A stretch of 64,000 bases of DNA from Hydrogenovibrio thermophilus (GTDB taxonomy: Bacteria > Pseudomonadota > Gammaproteobacteria > Thiomicrospirales > Thiomicrospiraceae). This document shows, piece by piece, positions 41,564-50,963 of this stretch. The stretch spans positions 806,001 through 870,000 of the forward strand of contig NZ_CP035033.1 in the NCBI RefSeq assembly GCF_004028275.1. Reading direction: 5' to 3'. The notes beneath the pieces were generated by a model. The model was given only the letters and a program-made list of their open reading frames with translations, was not told where the DNA came from and made no database searches. Made by a program: the position numbers and the translations under genes. Positions within the stretch are counted from its first letter, which is position 1. Each line of letters starts with the position of its first letter.

Positions 41564-43010
41564 ATTTGTGGAAGTGTTGCAGGCAAACCCGTGGGCTTGG
41601 GGGCTGCTGGTCGTATCGGTCGGACTGGCCGTGATGACCGTTCGTTTGAAACGACAGCGCGATGCGGCACAGGATAAACTGCCAGGCCTGGCCAGATTGG
41701 AGGAAGAAGCCGATGCGCTTCAAGCACAAAATCAGCGGTTGCAGGCCGAAATGGTGGATTTGCAGGTGATGAAAGGCGAAGCCAATCAGCAACGCGAACA
41801 GGTGGCGCAATTACGCCAGGATTTAGGCGTACAACAAGCGCAATATGAACAGCTTCAGCAACGTTATGCGCATGCGCAGTCGGAATTGTCGGGTCTCAAA
41901 AACCGTATGGAGGCGGAGCGGGAAAGTCATGCCGAAAAGCTGGCGTTATTGGAAAACGCCAAGCAAACGCTGATGCAGGAATTCAAGGTGTTGTCGAATG
42001 AAATCCTCGACCAAAAGCAACAGCAAATGCGCCAGCAAAGCAAAGAGACCATCGGCGGCTTGATTCAACCGGTACAAACCGCTTTGAACGAATTCAAGCA
42101 ACGGATCGAAGCCGTGCACAAGGAAGACTTGGAAGGACGCGCCTCCTTAACCGAGCAGTTGCGACACTTGTCGGAGTTGAATCGGTCGATGACCCAGGAA
42201 GCGCAGAACCTTACCAAAGCCCTGAAAGGCGACCAAAAAATGCAGGGCAATTGGGGCGAATTCATACTGAAAAAACTGTTGGAATCCAGTGGATTGCGGG
42301 AAGGGGTCGAATTTGAAACCGAAAAGAGTTTTACCGAGGAAAGCGGTCAACGGCTCCGTCCCGATGTGGTAATCAATCTGCCGGATAACAAGCACGTCAT
42401 CATTGATTCCAAGGTCTCGTTGCTCAGCTACGAGGCGGCTTTGAACGCCGACGACGAGATTGAAAAACAAAAACACCTCAAAGCCCACTCGGCCAGCTTG
42501 ACCAAACACATCCAAGCCTTGTCGGAAAAACGCTACGATCATTTGTCGTTACTGAACGCACCGGATTTTGTGTTGATGTTCATCCCGATTGAAGGCGCTT
42601 ACATGATGGCGATTGAACAGAATCCGACCATCTTTGAAAACGCTTTCGACAAGCGGGTAGCGGTGGTCACGCCCACCACTTTGTTTACGACCTTGAAAAC
42701 CATTGAGCAGTTGTGGCGTTATGAACGTCAATCGGAGCATACCGTGAAACTGATTCGCCGTGCGGCGGACGTGCATGATAAATTTGCCGGCTTCGTTGAT
42801 ACCTTCGAGAAAATTGGCAAACAATTGACGACGGTGCAAGGGTCTTATGACCAAGCCAGAAAGCAAATGATGAGCGGCAGCGGAAATTTAGTGCGGCAGG
42901 CTGAAATGTTGAAAGAGTTGGCCGGTAAAACCAAAAAAGAAATTCCTCAGCATTTATTGGATGAAGCGGAGGGGGTGCCGTTGCTTTCAGAAGAAACCGA
43001 CAAGTCTTAA
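41550..43010 (+). CDS. rmuC: DNA recombination protein RmuC
   Basis: A 486-residue protein with an N-terminal membrane helix (about 16-33), a long coiled coil (about 45-160), and the conserved RmuC nuclease-like domain (about 220-430: G-N-W-G-E, L-R-P-D-V-V-I-N-L-P-D, D-S-K-V-S-L, F-V-D-T-F). RmuC limits inversions at short inverted repeats in E. coli. It overlaps mshK at its start and the receiver gene by 4 bases at its end. An exact palindrome copy lies just after the membrane helix. Confidence 0.9.
   Translation: MTWSEFVEVLQANPWAWGLLVVSVGLAVMTVRLKRQRDAAQDKLPGLARLEEEADALQAQNQRLQAEMVDLQVMKGEANQQREQVAQLRQDLGVQQAQYEQLQQRYAHAQSELSGLKNRMEAERESHAEKLALLENAKQTLMQEFKVLSNEILDQKQQQMRQQSKETIGGLIQPVQTALNEFKQRIEAVHKEDLEGRASLTEQLRHLSELNRSMTQEAQNLTKALKGDQKMQGNWGEFILKKLLESSGLREGVEFETEKSFTEESGQRLRPDVVINLPDNKHVIIDSKVSLLSYEAALNADDEIEKQKHLKAHSASLTKHIQALSEKRYDHLSLLNAPDFVLMFIPIEGAYMMAIEQNPTIFENAFDKRVAVVTPTTLFTTLKTIEQLWRYERQSEHTVKLIRRAADVHDKFAGFVDTFEKIGKQLTTVQGSYDQARKQMMSGSGNLVRQAEMLKELAGKTKKEIPQHLLDEAEGVPLLSEETDKS
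41682..41691. repeat. CCAGGCCTGG iterated palindrome (exact)
   Basis: Exact copy in rmuC, read as Leu-Pro-Gly-Leu-Ala. Confidence 0.85.
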
Positions 43011-43390
43011 TTGTTGTTGACTGTCTGTGTCAGTAACCGCTTGACAGCGTCAATCAGGGTCAATGGCTGAAACGGTTTGATAACCCAGGCCGAGACATGC
43101 AATGATTTGGCTTGTTCCTTGATGCAGGGGTCGGTCTCGGCCGTCAGCATCAATATCGGTGTATGCTCGTACTCCGCTTGTTCGCGCAGATGTCTGACCA
43201 ATTCCAGGCCGGTGTTCTCCGGCATCAAGTAATCGATGACGAATAAATCATAATGCGTCCGACGTGTGTGTTCCAATGCTTCCGACATAGAACTCGCCAA
43301 ATCGACGGTCCAGTCCGGTTGCGTTTTAAAGGTGATTTTCAGCATGTTTCGGATGACATCGGCATCGTCGACAGCGAGTAGATGCGCCAT
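43007..43390 (-). CDS. Single-domain response regulator (CheY-like)
   Basis: A 127-residue receiver with no output domain. Acidic pair D-D at residues 8-9, phospho-acceptor Asp in L-F-V-I-D-Y-L-M-P near residue 53, the L-T-A-E Thr switch, and V-I-K-P-F lysine near residue 104 are all present. It may signal by protein contact, as CheY or PilG/PilH do. No kinase is next to it. It is convergent with rmuC, sharing 4 bases. Confidence 0.88.
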   Translation of the reverse strand: MAHLLAVDDADVIRNMLKITFKTQPDWTVDLASSMSEALEHTRRTHYDLFVIDYLMPENTGLELVRHLREQAEYEHTPILMLTAETDPCIKEQAKSLHVSAWVIKPFQPLTLIDAVKRLLTQTVNNN

Positions 43391-46664: not shown

Positions 46665-47390
46665 ATGAAAATGGGATTATCCACATTCAAACCCTGGTCA
46701 ATTGGTATGGCGTTGTTGGCGTGTTCCGGTTGGGCGTTGGCCGATGAAGCCGTCATTCAAAAAAAATTGCAGCAATTGATTCCGGGTGCGCCGCCGGCGA
46801 AGATCCAGGAAAGTCAGATTCCCGGTTTATATCAAGTGTCGATCGGGCCGAAAATCGTTTACATGAGTGCCGACGGGCACTATCTGGTCTCCGGCAGTAT
46901 TGTGGATTTGAATACTCGTGAAAATCTGACTGAAACCGCCAAGAACCAAGCGCGTAAAACCGAATTGGAGAAGCTCTCGGTCGACAGTATGATTATTTAC
47001 CCGGCGAAAGGGTCGACCAAGCGGACCATTACGGTATTTTCCGACATCGATTGCCCATATTGCCGCAAGCTGCACAAAGAGATTCCAGCGCTGAATGAGG
47101 CTGGCATCGAAGTGCGTTACATGGCTTATCCGCGTGCCGGAGTCGGCTCGCCGGCTTACCAGAAAGCGGTGTCTGTATGGTGCAGTGATGACAGCCGTCA
47201 AGCGATGGATCAGGCGATGGAGAGTGGTCAAGTGAGCCCCAAAACGTGCCAGAATCCGGTTCAGAAACACATGATGGAAGCTGAGGCCTTCGGTGTCAGC
47301 GGTACGCCGAACATTGTGTTTGATTCCGGCGAAATGATTCCGGGCTATGCACCGGCCAATGAACTGATTAAGATGCTGGTGAAAAGCTGA
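46665..47390 (+). CDS. dsbC: Thiol:disulfide interchange protein DsbC
   Basis: Periplasmic disulfide isomerase. The 241-residue precursor has a signal peptide (cleavage after W-A-L-A), an N-terminal dimerisation domain (about 25-85), and a thioredoxin domain with active site C-P-Y-C, cis-Pro G-T-P-N, and a second cysteine pair further on. ATG 46665 has an AGGA site; the in-frame GTG at 46617 would put 16 polar residues before the signal peptide. Confidence 0.92.
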   Translation: MKMGLSTFKPWSIGMALLACSGWALADEAVIQKKLQQLIPGAPPAKIQESQIPGLYQVSIGPKIVYMSADGHYLVSGSIVDLNTRENLTETAKNQARKTELEKLSVDSMIIYPAKGSTKRTITVFSDIDCPYCRKLHKEIPALNEAGIEVRYMAYPRAGVGSPAYQKAVSVWCSDDSRQAMDQAMESGQVSPKTCQNPVQKHMMEAEAFGVSGTPNIVFDSGEMIPGYAPANELIKMLVKS

Positions 47391-47435
47391 GAGAGCTGAA
47401 TAATTTCAGAAGAAAATTGTACTTAGATGAAAAAT

Positions 47436-47462
47436 AAAAAAGGGGCGATCAGCCCCTTTTTT
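47436..47462. terminator. Bidirectional terminator after dsbC and the 47461-48696 gene
   Basis: Stem AAAAAAGGGGC (47436-47446) with GCCCCTTTTTT (47452-47462), loop GATCA. Its right arm overlaps the stop codon of the minus-strand gene. Confidence 0.92.
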
Positions 47463-48696
47463 ATTCTTTGATGTTCAGCTCCGGTGCCCGGTAGCTGTAT
47501 GGATTGGGGCGAGACGCCAACTCCTGAGTGACGGTTTCCAAATCCTGCACTTTCTTCTGGATATGATCCTGCTGGGACTTCAGTTCCGTGACCTGTTTGC
47601 TGAGTTGTTTCAAGCTGCTGTCGATGTTTTTCAGCGCACCTGTGTCTGAAGTCCCTTTCGTTTTGGAGGCGGAGGCTTTCATTTGTGCGTCCAGAGTGGC
47701 TTGGATTTTTTTCAACAGTTTGCGCTGTTCGCTGACCGACCAGGAAATGCCGTTCAGCTTTTTCACTTGCGATTCGGTCAGGCCCATAGACGTCACTTCG
47801 ACCGGTGCCACAGCGGATTGTGTGGTTTTGTGCAAAGTCGAAGCCTCGATTTTGGCTTGCACGTCCTGAATCTTCTGTAACAACGCTTGGATGCCCGCAT
47901 ATTGTTGGGCACGCTCGTCGGCATAGTGTTTCAGGTCTTTTTGAACCGCTTCCATCATTGCACCGGAAGCTGGTGTGACGGATTCGCTGACAGCTTTTGG
48001 CTCCGTCGTGGCGGTTTGGGTTTCTTGGCTGACTTCGTTTGTCACACTTTCTTGAGTGGCTTCGGCTTCCGGCTTCATATCAGCGTTGGTCGGAGCTTCC
48101 GGTGCCGGTTTTGAAGCGGAAATGCTCGCGCCATCGGTTCTCGGAATGTTCAGTCGTTGAATGTCTGCCGCCAAAGCTTCAATCAATGAGGATAACTGGT
48201 CCACTTTCAGGTTGAGGTTCTTATTGAACAGAGTGTTTTCCGTGGTGATGATGTCAAGTACATCCCCTTTTAGAGCGTCATGTTTTTTGCTGAGGCTGTA
48301 ATACAGCCAGCTCATAATACCAACGGAAATCACGCTGACGGCAATCGACACCGACATCATGATGGTGATGGCATTTTTTGCCGTTTTCAGGTCATTCGAC
48401 GCCGCGCGCAGTGATTGTCGCCAAGCGACATTCGAATCCGATAGTTCGATGATTTGCGCTTTTTGTTCGTGGGAAATTTTAATGGCGGCTTCGGCCGCGG
48501 ACTGGCTTTGTTCGGCGGCCAACTGAGCCGTCTTGGCGGCTTCCAATGACAGTGCGGCGGCATCCAGATGGTCGGCTTCACCGGAGGCTTCCAGCGCCTT
48601 GTTTTTTTCGGAGGCTTTTTCCACTTCTTCCTGCATTTCGGCCGAAGCGTTTTCCAATTGCTCCAATTCGTCTAGTAGATCGTCCGTATCACTCAT
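47461..48696 (-). CDS. Single-span membrane protein with coiled coils, unknown function
   Basis: Not recognised. The 411-residue protein has a cytosolic acidic N-terminus (D-D-L-L-D-E-L-E-Q-L-E) and Ala-rich coiled coil (about 48-105), one membrane helix (about 108-134), a Thr/Ser/Pro/Glu-rich periplasmic region (about 190-240), and coiled coils (about 240-285 and 325-395). It follows the acidic protein gene by 12 bases and shares with it the N-terminal D-D-L-L-D-x-L-x-Q-L-x-E and an Ala/Lys/Gln-rich helix, suggesting common descent or a matched pair. The layout suggests a scaffold spanning the inner membrane. Confidence 0.8.
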   Translation of the reverse strand: MSDTDDLLDELEQLENASAEMQEEVEKASEKNKALEASGEADHLDAAALSLEAAKTAQLAAEQSQSAAEAAIKISHEQKAQIIELSDSNVAWRQSLRAASNDLKTAKNAITIMMSVSIAVSVISVGIMSWLYYSLSKKHDALKGDVLDIITTENTLFNKNLNLKVDQLSSLIEALAADIQRLNIPRTDGASISASKPAPEAPTNADMKPEAEATQESVTNEVSQETQTATTEPKAVSESVTPASGAMMEAVQKDLKHYADERAQQYAGIQALLQKIQDVQAKIEASTLHKTTQSAVAPVEVTSMGLTESQVKKLNGISWSVSEQRKLLKKIQATLDAQMKASASKTKGTSDTGALKNIDSSLKQLSKQVTELKSQQDHIQKKVQDLETVTQELASRPNPYSYRAPELNIKE

Positions 48697-48708
48697 AGTG
48701 GATTGCCT

Positions 48709-50085
48709 TTATTTTTTCCCCAGTGCGTCGATACGACTTTTCAGGGACTCATTCGTTTGTCTTAATTCGGTATTCTTGCTGCGAATTTCCGCCAGTTGAG
48801 CCAGTAGCTCATCATTTGAAACCGGTGCGCTCAGTTCGGACAGCTCGATTTCATACCCGGCGTTTTTCGCGGCTTCAAAGGCACGTTCCGTCGCTTGGAA
48901 GGTGGCTTCAATGGCTTTTTGTGCTTTATCGGCCGACGCCTGGGCTTTTTTAGAGACTTCCAGCGCCAATCGGGTGGCTTCATGTGCGGTTTCCGCGACT
49001 TCCGAACTGATTTGTTTCACTTCGTCGTCGATGGCGATGGCTTCTTCCATACTATCGATGCTGTCCGCGGCTTGCTCAATTAATGAAGTGTCGTCAGAGG
49101 CTTCGGCCGACTCGGTTGTCGAGACGGCTTCAGGTTCTGGGGTCTCATCATTCATGGCATCGGTTTCATCCATAGAAGGTTCGGTTGCGCCTGCCATTTC
49201 CACAGGGGATTCCATTTCCGGCGAGGTATCCTCTTCAAGAGCGGTCTCTTCCGTCGCAGCGTCTTCGATATCCGGCAATTCACTGTCCAGTTCAGATGTC
49301 GGTTCGGCCTCCGTTTCCGTTGCATCGAGTGTTTCCTCGGCCACAGTGGCTTCCGGTTCGTCCGTTAGTTCTGGTAGGGCTTCATCCGTCGCGGTGTCAT
49401 CGGTTGGCAGACTGTCGTCTGTGTCCAAGGCATCCAAGATTTCATTGTCACCCGTATCACCTTCTGTTTCAGCGGTTTCTTCCGGTAGCTCCAATGATTC
49501 GATGGCCTTGTCTTGGAAGTCATTTTCCAGTTCAGCCATTTCATTCGCCATGGCGTCAATGTCGTCTATCGCATCATCGGTTTCCGGAAGGTCGTCATCC
49601 GGCGCTTTTGCAGAGGACGCTTCGGTTTCAAAGGCGGTCGTCTCTTCGTCCTGAGTTTCCATTTCCGAGTCCATGTCGGGCACCGCTTCATCCATCATTT
49701 CATCCGAAGGTTCCAGTGGGGTTTCCAGCGCTTCGGAAACGTCGTCTTCTAGCGTGTCGGAAGTGTTTTCGACTTCCGCCAATAGCTCGTCCACGGTCTG
49801 GGCTTCGTCTTCAGTGAACGGCAGGTCGTCTTCGCCCGAGTCGATATCGGTAGCCGTTGTCGTGGTTTCCGGTTCAGGGGATGGGGTTTCTGGAGGTGGT
49901 TCCGGTGTATCTTCCGACAATTCCGGTTCAACGTCGGTTTCCGCCAGTTGATCCAGAGCATCCAGCAAGTCGTCAGCATCCGATTCGCTCGCCGGTGCAT
50001 CGCCGGCTTCGGCAATGGATTCTTCGCCCATCATTTTCAGCATTTCCTGGGTTGCTAAATCGTCTTTTTCCATATCCGCGGTCAT
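48709..50085 (-). CDS. Highly acidic coiled-coil protein, unknown function
   Basis: Not recognised. The 458-residue protein has no signal peptide or membrane helix. Residues 1 to about 340 are dominated by Asp, Glu, Thr, Ala and Pro with almost no Lys or Arg, so it should be disordered with a very low pI. Residues about 345-458 form an Ala/Glu/Lys-rich coiled coil ending S-L-K-S-R-I-D-A-L-G-K-K. It is cotranscribed with the membrane coiled-coil gene 12 bases downstream. The long open frame on the opposite strand here is a composition artefact. Confidence 0.8.
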   Translation of the reverse strand: MTADMEKDDLATQEMLKMMGEESIAEAGDAPASESDADDLLDALDQLAETDVEPELSEDTPEPPPETPSPEPETTTTATDIDSGEDDLPFTEDEAQTVDELLAEVENTSDTLEDDVSEALETPLEPSDEMMDEAVPDMDSEMETQDEETTAFETEASSAKAPDDDLPETDDAIDDIDAMANEMAELENDFQDKAIESLELPEETAETEGDTGDNEILDALDTDDSLPTDDTATDEALPELTDEPEATVAEETLDATETEAEPTSELDSELPDIEDAATEETALEEDTSPEMESPVEMAGATEPSMDETDAMNDETPEPEAVSTTESAEASDDTSLIEQAADSIDSMEEAIAIDDEVKQISSEVAETAHEATRLALEVSKKAQASADKAQKAIEATFQATERAFEAAKNAGYEIELSELSAPVSNDELLAQLAEIRSKNTELRQTNESLKSRIDALGKK

Positions 50086-50185
50086 GATTGAATACCTTTT
50101 AAATGCGTTCAGCTATCTTAGCGCAACAAGGCCGGTTTTGGATACCGGACGCTTATTGCGGATATTTTGTGTAACGAAAAGCATG

Positions 50186-50872
50186 TTATGTGCCAGTTAT
50201 AAAGGATGTGAGTTCTTCCAGGTGTTCAAATGCCAGTTTTTGACCGCCGGTCGGGTGGGTAAAGGAAAGGAAACAGGCATGCAACAATAAACGCTGACTC
50301 ATCTTTAAGCTGTGCGTATCGGCATAAAGATTATCGCCCAGAATCGGGTGGCCGAGCATTTTCATGTGTAAGCGAAGTTGATGGGAACGACCGGTGATGG
50401 GGGTGAGTTGCATGAGCGAGAGGCCGTTGCCTAGGTGTTCCGCCTGCCAAAGGGTTGTGGCCGCTTTGCCTTGCCGAAAATCGATTATTTGCAAGGGGCG
50501 CTTTTCCCAGTCGCAGCGCATGGGCAGCCGAATCCGTCCTTCGGGTTGACTGGGGTGTCCGTAACAAATGGCTTGGTAGCGCTTTTCGGTTAGTCGATCC
50601 TGGAATTGAATACTGAGGTGGCGGTGTGCGGCTTTATTTTTAGCCAGAACCATCAGGCCGGAGGTATCCATGTCCAGGCGATGGACGATGAGTGCCGAAG
50701 TGCAATGGGTATGTACTTGTGCCAGAAGGTTATGGTCGGGATGGACGTTACGACCCGGCACCGACAGTAATCCGGAGGGTTTGTTGACGACCAGAAGGGC
50801 GTCGTCTTCGTAAATCACCCAAGCTGGGTCGAAAGGAATATGGGGAATGTCGGTTCGATAGGCTGTGGTCAT
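50186..50872 (-). CDS. rluA: Pseudouridine synthase RluA (23S rRNA U746 / tRNA U32)
   Basis: A 228-residue RluA-family enzyme without an S4 domain, the length and layout of dual-specificity RluA. Catalytic Asp is in H-R-L-D-M-D-T-S-G-L; the N-terminal V-N-K-P-S-G-L-L-S-V-P-G and I-T-G-R-S-H-Q-L-R-L-H motifs are present. TruC is the main alternative. Confidence 0.88.
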   Translation of the reverse strand: MTTAYRTDIPHIPFDPAWVIYEDDALLVVNKPSGLLSVPGRNVHPDHNLLAQVHTHCTSALIVHRLDMDTSGLMVLAKNKAAHRHLSIQFQDRLTEKRYQAICYGHPSQPEGRIRLPMRCDWEKRPLQIIDFRQGKAATTLWQAEHLGNGLSLMQLTPITGRSHQLRLHMKMLGHPILGDNLYADTHSLKMSQRLLLHACFLSFTHPTGGQKLAFEHLEELTSFITGT

Positions 50873-50963
50873 GGTATTGGTGAGTACGAAGCTGAATGGA
50901 AGCGGAAACTGTCCAATGGATACGTTAAAATAATGGCCTTTATTGTAAAAGAGAAAAGGTTTG

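Follow-up and report, generated by a model that had tools for sequence, protein, structure and literature searches.

A conserved gene pair encoding an acidic protein and a single-span coiled-coil protein, nearly confined to one gammaproteobacterial order: a candidate envelope-tethered scaffold

A stretch of 64,000 nucleotides of the Hydrogenovibrio thermophilus genome (NZ_CP035033.1, positions 806,001 to 870,000; here called the window) contains two neighboring genes, A and B, for which no function has been described in the family libraries searched. Both open reading frames (ORFs) are complete, lie on the minus strand at 47461-50085 and are separated by only 12 nt between the A stop and the B start. 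An earlier note, made from the sequence alone, had read this locus as a two-gene unit that encodes a strongly acidic protein with a C-terminal coiled coil, followed by a single-span membrane protein with coiled coils. The two ORFs are indeed kept together as a pair, and both descriptions agree with the composition, hydropathy and structural models given below (Table 1). The two genes are real, are conserved together and, among the sampled genomes, are almost confined to the order of Hydrogenovibrio and Thiomicrorhabdus.

Using family profiles, B was found in 59/62 genomes of the order and A in 56/62, and none of these 62 genomes has A without B. A directly precedes B in 29 of the first 30 loci (in the 30th, the contig ends inside B), with a spacing of 9-57 nt in the 24 loci measured. 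Conservation as a pair, whose absence would have refuted the reading of the earlier note, is observed. The wider distribution was assessed in a class sample of 369 genomes, four of which belong to the order of A and B. The profiles gave 15 matches for B, 6 for A and 9 for C, a relative of B that is introduced below (the A and C searches at E 0.01). A convincing pair outside the order occurs in 1/365 genomes, namely in G118, the sole sampled genome of its own order, where the two genes are adjacent (A: E 3.5e-23; B: E 1.9e-5). The other matches outside the order (11 B, 2 A and 6 C) were discarded as short, weak and coiled-coil-like, judging by their E-values and profile positions. The G118 pair (L140:2-1367), from another family of the class, is divergent and follows a cca-like gene; its B copy runs off the contig.

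Matches to pseudouridine-synthase genes (those of the window's two genes, which may cross-match) are found near the pair in 17/19 compared loci, and RNase E in 10/19. Shrunken pairs were also seen, at L054:9325-10563 (A 111 aa, B 296 aa) and L055:9634-10880 (A 109 aa, B 298 aa). In the two genomes concerned (G022 and G082) the genes are still adjacent, with a pseudouridine-synthase gene on one side and an FKBP-like gene on the other, and the tail of B is kept as YxYRNP. As the pair is near-universal in the order, near-confined to it and often found near the same genes, it looks old and vertically inherited within this one order.

Neither protein of the window has a match above cut-off in Pfam or NCBIfam, so that the absence of a characterized family, as claimed earlier, holds for both: neither belongs to a family described in these libraries or the others searched. 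Weak matches were obtained in several libraries. In PHROGs and PADLOC, which carry no cut-offs, A has no match, and B matches weakly (PHROGs: E 0.0013; PADLOC: LmuB, E 8.8e-6, spread over residues 9-393). The 29 B members hit 18 NCBIfam families at E 0.01, the best being an SMC model (E 3.2e-6), and SMC-type models were matched by seven or eight of the 29. For the 25 A members, six Pfam families were found at E 0.01, each matched by at most two members and none by the A of the window. Against the PDB sequences, the B profile matched 43 coiled-coil-type chains in all, with a methyl-accepting chemotaxis protein as best match (E 2.1e-5, profile positions 146-392), and A matched three helical chains. 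As family identities these weak Pfam, NCBIfam, PHROGs, PADLOC and PDB matches were rejected; they were judged to stem from the coiled coils. A literature search with partial coverage yielded no paper recognized as describing A, B or C.

Table 1. Features of the A/B locus (positions are those of the window).
Feature	Position	Strand	Description	Basis
Gene A	48709..50085	minus	458 aa, acidic, helical C-terminus	ORF and family alignment of 25
A residues 5-20	50026..50073	minus	conserved N-terminal motif EKDDLATQEMLKMMG	family alignment
A residues 25-335	49081..50013	minus	D/E-rich linker, holds the DDLL motif, otherwise unconserved	composition
A residues 37-49	49939..49977	minus	ADDLLDALDQLAE motif (DDLL)	19/25 A proteins
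A residues 336-458	48712..49080	minus	conserved helical C-terminus: Ala/Lys/Gln helix, then short coiled coil	alignment and model
Gene B	47461..48696	minus	411 aa, single-span membrane coiled-coil protein	ORF, alignment of 29 and AlphaFold model
B residues 4-15	48652..48687	minus	TDDLLDELEQLE motif	29/29 B proteins
B residues 43-108	48373..48570	minus	cytosolic helix with LEAAKTAQLAAEQSQ and WRQ site	alignment and model
B residues 109-135	48292..48372	minus	membrane span	hydropathy
B residues 136-183	48148..48291	minus	conserved juxtamembrane periplasmic helix, inside the stretch common to C	alignment and model
B residues 244-395	47512..47967	minus	periplasmic coiled coils	AlphaFold model
B residues 399-405	47482..47502	minus	PYSYRAP tail motif	family pattern
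Candidate B ribosome-binding site	48706..48710	minus	AAAGG, overlaps the A stop codon	sequence reading
Terminator-like hairpin	47433..47465	readable on both strands	A and T tracts on both sides, between dsbC-type gene and B	

The A family was aligned from 25 of the first 30 loci (excluded were L028, where the contig stops, and the 5'-open L008, L009, L019 and L025) and the B family from 29, with L028 excluded. In both families several starts were shifted to a downstream start codon that lines up in the alignment. Protein A can be divided into conserved ends and a variable middle. It opens with the helix-like motif KDDxATxEMLxMMG, and the mean majority fraction (n=25) is 0.63 for residues 1-24, 0.55 for residues 37-46 (the DDLL motif), 0.56 for residues 336-402 and 0.48 for residues 403-458. 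In the A of the window, the linker contains 38% Asp and Glu and 1% Lys and Arg (net charge -115). Outside the motif its mean majority fraction is just 0.22-0.23, yet the composition is kept. In one genus (L024, L025, L026 and L027) the linker is built from short repeats such as LDEVAE (L026), IEDSAD (L024) and DEL, as if selection acted mainly on composition. The DDLL motif itself (pattern [DE][DAEG]LL[DNESM], residues 21-90) occurs in 19/25 A proteins, against 1.6 expected from same-letter shuffles. The C-terminus is helical in an AlphaFold model of a chain that reads through the A stop into B (predicted template modeling score, pTM, 0.33).

In protein B the N-terminal motif comes first. A DDLLDEL-type start (counted with a looser pattern in the first 25 residues) is present in all 29 B proteins, against 3.0 expected from shuffles. 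It is followed by a cytosolic helix that carries LEAAKTAQ and WRQ, with R93 invariant in 29/29 proteins. The sole uncharged hydrophobic stretch covers about residues 108-135 and is taken as the single membrane span. Beyond the membrane, K164 and E173 of the juxtamembrane helix are invariant in 29/29 as well. The AlphaFold model (moderate confidence; predicted local distance difference test score, pLDDT, 65.6; pTM 0.29) places helices at residues 4-37, 43-183, 244-292, 308-344 and 352-395: the continuous helix 43-183 crosses the membrane span, and three periplasmic helices come after it. The tail carries Y.[YF] followed by R, K, S, E or Q within the last 32 residues in 29/29 proteins, and the stricter Y.YR in 20/29 (a plain count). 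Conservation is concentrated in the N-terminal motif (mean majority fraction 0.65), the LEAAKTAQ/WRQ helix (0.59), the juxtamembrane helix (0.54) and the tail (0.66); residues 184-305 are poorly conserved (0.23-0.27).

It had been claimed that A and B both open with DDLLDxLxQLxE. This is correct for B, where the motif starts at residue 5, apart from the last Glu, which is Asn in B (QLEN); in A the copy starts at residue 38 and the N-terminus is occupied by the other motif. The similar Ala/Lys/Gln helix noticed in both proteins is supported by profile comparison: hhalign gave a score of 37.0 at a probability of 30%, whereas none of 120 shuffles exceeded 23.6 and reversed B scored 27.1. In an ungapped test, free, 11-periodic and local shuffles reached the score in 0/500 cases each and heptad-preserving shuffles in 5/500, and reversed B scored nearly the same (49.5 vs 48.9). 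The earlier note had proposed that A and B may be diverged paralogues that zip together; on paralogy, these comparisons point both ways. The joined chain (A 330-458 and B 1-140) was modeled by AlphaFold as helices, with pTM 0.33.

As for the remainder of the locus, A is preceded on the same strand, after a gap of 100 nt, by an RluA-type pseudouridine synthase, and a dsbC-type gene is convergent with B. Terminator-like sites number 8 in the region, with 6.4 expected from shuffles. A scan of 47300-50900 for sigma-70-like promoters had no hit, compared to 2.2 in shuffled sequence. A stand-alone receiver-domain protein is encoded elsewhere in the window (43007-43390, minus), adjoining a pilus- or secretion-like cluster at 36-43 kb; it was matched in 2/19 compared loci around the A/B pair.

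The most informative relative is encoded outside the window and was added by the present analysis to what the earlier note had described. This protein, C (L052:5242-6513; in the same genome C1:1672241-1673512, minus; 423 aa), is matched by the B profile with E 1.9e-6 and has no Pfam match above cut-off and no NCBIfam match. It combines an acidic N-terminus with an IDALLDEAE peptide, one span, a periplasmic coiled coil and a Y.YSAP tail. A C profile (20 proteins, from 20 C loci out of 53 C-bearing genomes) was compared to B with hhalign and aligned with a probability of 97.7%; the 217 aligned columns start shortly ahead of the membrane span and reach the tail. Since some shuffles reach a probability of 72%, it is the score that forms the evidence: 98.0, compared to at most 46.1 in 120 shuffles in which the C columns were shuffled locally or within heptads. 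Without the membrane span, the periplasmic parts still score 57.7, compared to at most 25.1 in 40 shuffles. With scores this far above the shuffles, B and C are very likely paralogues in their membrane and periplasmic parts. The two proteins also share an acidic cytosolic part and an N-terminal LL motif. They differ in that the cytosolic part of C does not align with the Ala/Lys/Gln helix and WRQ site of B, in the proline/glutamate-rich linker of C, and in the location of C next to LppC and LPP20 genes.

C was found in 53/62 genomes of the order (single-protein query), and in the class sample the C profile detected only the order's own genomes besides the six weak matches. In all 11 fetched C loci the gene order is PepN-like, LppC-like, C and LPP20-like, sometimes with a small ORF in between. 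PilZ, FlgN-like, FlgA and CheV-like genes lie near C in 5/11 of these loci, and also in the H. thermophilus genome. The FlgA neighborhood of G022, G082, G011 and G017 holds no C; C can lie elsewhere. The labels FlgA, PilZ, LPP20, LppC, FliM and CheZ are based on Pfam; CheV, FlgN, PepN, FliJ, RluC, low-molecular-weight phosphatase, cca and the gsh genes are named from reading the sequences. The latter also holds for "FlgP" as a name for the LPP20 protein beside C, which matches LPP20 in Pfam and received no name from NCBIfam. FlgP is described as building the basal disk in other bacteria (PMC11756786).

A further feature common to A, B and C is a short LL peptide: TDDLLDEL at the start of B, ADDLLDAL at residue 37 of A and IDALLDEAE near the start of C. 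The last is invariant in the 20 aligned proteins and exact in 22/24 C proteins seen, with the other two one residue off. Overall, an xDxLL core lies near a protein end in 29/29 B, 19/25 A and 20/20 aligned C proteins. This conservation argues for a working peptide. The terminal peptide of CheZ is known to bind CheY. In the same genome as A, B and C, the FliM N-terminus (MDDILSQDEVDALLK) and the CheZ C-terminus (SQDEVDDLLGDLGI) contain the xDxLL core, and A and B differ from both proteins in having no FliM or CheZ domain match (Pfam, NCBIfam). The FliM motif LSQxEIDALL binds phosphorylated CheY (CheY-P) (PMC6700473, PMC9126983). Binding of CheY by the LL peptides is a lead suggested by the resemblance. 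In addition, the linker of a CheA-like ORF of the same genome (L134:1901-3301) contains two repeats that are nearly identical and have a FliM-like core, ISDDEFEALLNQRD and ITDEEFEALLNQRD.

Taken together, the tentatively favored reading, to which we assign a probability of roughly 0.38, is that A and B make up an acidic scaffold which is tethered to the envelope and, probably together with C, serves the motility or chemosensory machinery. We infer this function, as well as the binding of A to B and the binding of CheY, from the features described above. The long negative linker of A would spread the protein as a brush, and its C-terminal helices would oligomerize or pair with the cytosolic helix of B. 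B would then carry the assembly through the membrane on one long helix, after which its periplasmic coiled coils and YxY tail would fix the complex to the envelope or to a motor structure. A client could be captured by the short peptides that A, B and C carry; the likeliest such client is a CheY-type receiver, because FliM and CheZ of the same genome end in similar peptides. A far more specific version is quite doubtful: A, B and C would together constitute a module peculiar to the order, which keeps CheY-type receivers at the envelope next to the flagellar motor. Here, the acidic assembly tethered by B and C would display many FliM/CheZ-like peptides and act as a membrane-bound store or sink of CheY-P; no component of this kind was found in a limited and coarse literature search.

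The distribution of the genes provides part of the support for the scaffold. FliM is present in 57/62 genomes of the order. For the following comparisons, only the 50 high-quality genomes were used (completeness of 90% or more, contamination of 5% or less), which excludes 12, G070 among them. G015 is the only one of the 50 without FliM, and it also lacks A, B, C and the CheW domain. Four genomes have no full-length A match (G011, G015, G022 and G082) and the same four lack C, with a Fisher p of 1.5e-4 that ignores shared descent, G015, G022 and G082 being of one genus. C alone is missing in three more. Absence of FliM was also compared with absence of B (p 0.04), A (p 0.08) and C (p 0.14).

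A number of observations weigh against a link to motility or to CheY, besides the shared descent just mentioned. The correlation with motility is weak because a single high-quality genome lacks FliM, and C was sought with a single protein, so that some of its absences may be divergence. G011 (97% complete) has FliM and CheW without an A or B match; G070 (79% complete) has C and FliM, likewise without an A or B match. G118 (84% complete) has the pair without a FliM match, but with a CheW match, which adjoins genes read as glutathione-synthesis genes. The neighbors of A and B are housekeeping genes, not flagellar ones; the PilZ-FlgN-FlgA-CheV set is missing from 6/11 C loci; and the profile comparison of A with C gave no relation (0.6%). 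Regarding the peptides, the LSQ part of the FliM motif is absent from A and B, so that neither contains the full LSQxEIDALL (C has NDLDSIDALL). A search of the PDB sequences with the N-termini of B and C gave no CheY partner chain, the query being too short to decide. Among 158 ORFs of the same genome, a loose LL motif falls within 50 residues of the N-terminus or 25 of the C-terminus in seven, namely A, B, C, FliM, CheZ, a FliJ-like protein and one further ORF. The pattern is short and was drawn up with the first five of these proteins already known, 9 of its 16 hits are mid-protein and the placement has no chance control, so that this count is a description rather than a test. A chemosensory rather than strictly flagellar role is possible.

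The alternative that survives best, though unlikely, is a scaffold for the envelope or cell shape without a link to motility, with B as a periplasmic coiled-coil skeleton like CrvA/CrvB, A as its cytosolic partner and C as an old duplicate with a separate role. Members of these genera have spiral, vibrioid or rod-shaped cells. The single span and periplasmic coiled coils of B would fit such a skeleton, as would the housekeeping neighborhood of the pair, its near-universal presence in the order and the occurrence of C without A and B in G070. It accounts less readily for the joint absence of C and full-length A in four high-quality genomes and for the N-terminal LL motifs common to A, B and C, and the likeness to CrvA is one of layout instead of sequence.

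Quite unlikely is that A works alone as a PopZ-like condensate or pole organizer, with B merely co-transcribed or acting as membrane client. Pfam holds a PopZ family, and it is not among the matches of the 25 A proteins at E 0.01. Moreover, A was never found without B in the 62 genomes of the order, and the two proteins shrank together in G022 and G082. What speaks for a solo organizer is that the linker, constrained in composition, has conserved motifs on either side and within it, and that the parts of A appear to follow the order described for PopZ, namely an N-terminal client helix, an acidic linker and C-terminal oligomerizing helices (PMC9512792). Hardly credible, finally, is a role with the chromosomal neighbors, for instance as an anchor for RNase E (near 10/19 loci) or pseudouridine synthases (17/19, with possible cross-matches), as a housekeeping gene order needs no functional link and the pair of G118 follows a gene read as cca. 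The scaffold serving motility or chemosensing is favored over both the shape scaffold and the solo organizer, at the probability given above.

If the favored reading is true, motility or chemosensing in one order of sulfur-oxidizing bacteria involves a membrane-anchored scaffold peculiar to that order. One component would have its parts arranged as in PopZ, and the other would be related to a protein encoded in an LPP20/flagellar gene neighborhood. Even without the link to motility, the order has in A and B a near-universal, uncharacterized gene pair with conserved end motifs that are directly testable.

Several known systems can be compared to the pair. CrvA/CrvB and FimV/HubP, like the scaffold proposed here, are membrane-anchored coiled-coil or acidic scaffolds. 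The E-ring proteins FlgY, MotE and FlbB likewise combine a signal peptide or membrane anchor with a coiled coil in a motor accessory (PMC13023049). In the same paper, FlgY homologues are characterized by an MgtE_N-type head and reported as absent from beta- and gammaproteobacteria; this head (PF03448) is not matched in B (E 1) or C (E 0.1). The closest parallel for A is the layout of PopZ, which consists of a short conserved N-terminus, an acidic linker of 78 residues and a helical C-terminus, and which is reported only from alphaproteobacteria (PMC9512792). A has no match to the PopZ family in Pfam. It does have the conserved short N-terminus, the acidic linker and, from the model, the helical C-terminus; its linker, however, is about 310 residues long, and A is gammaproteobacterial and paired with a membrane protein.

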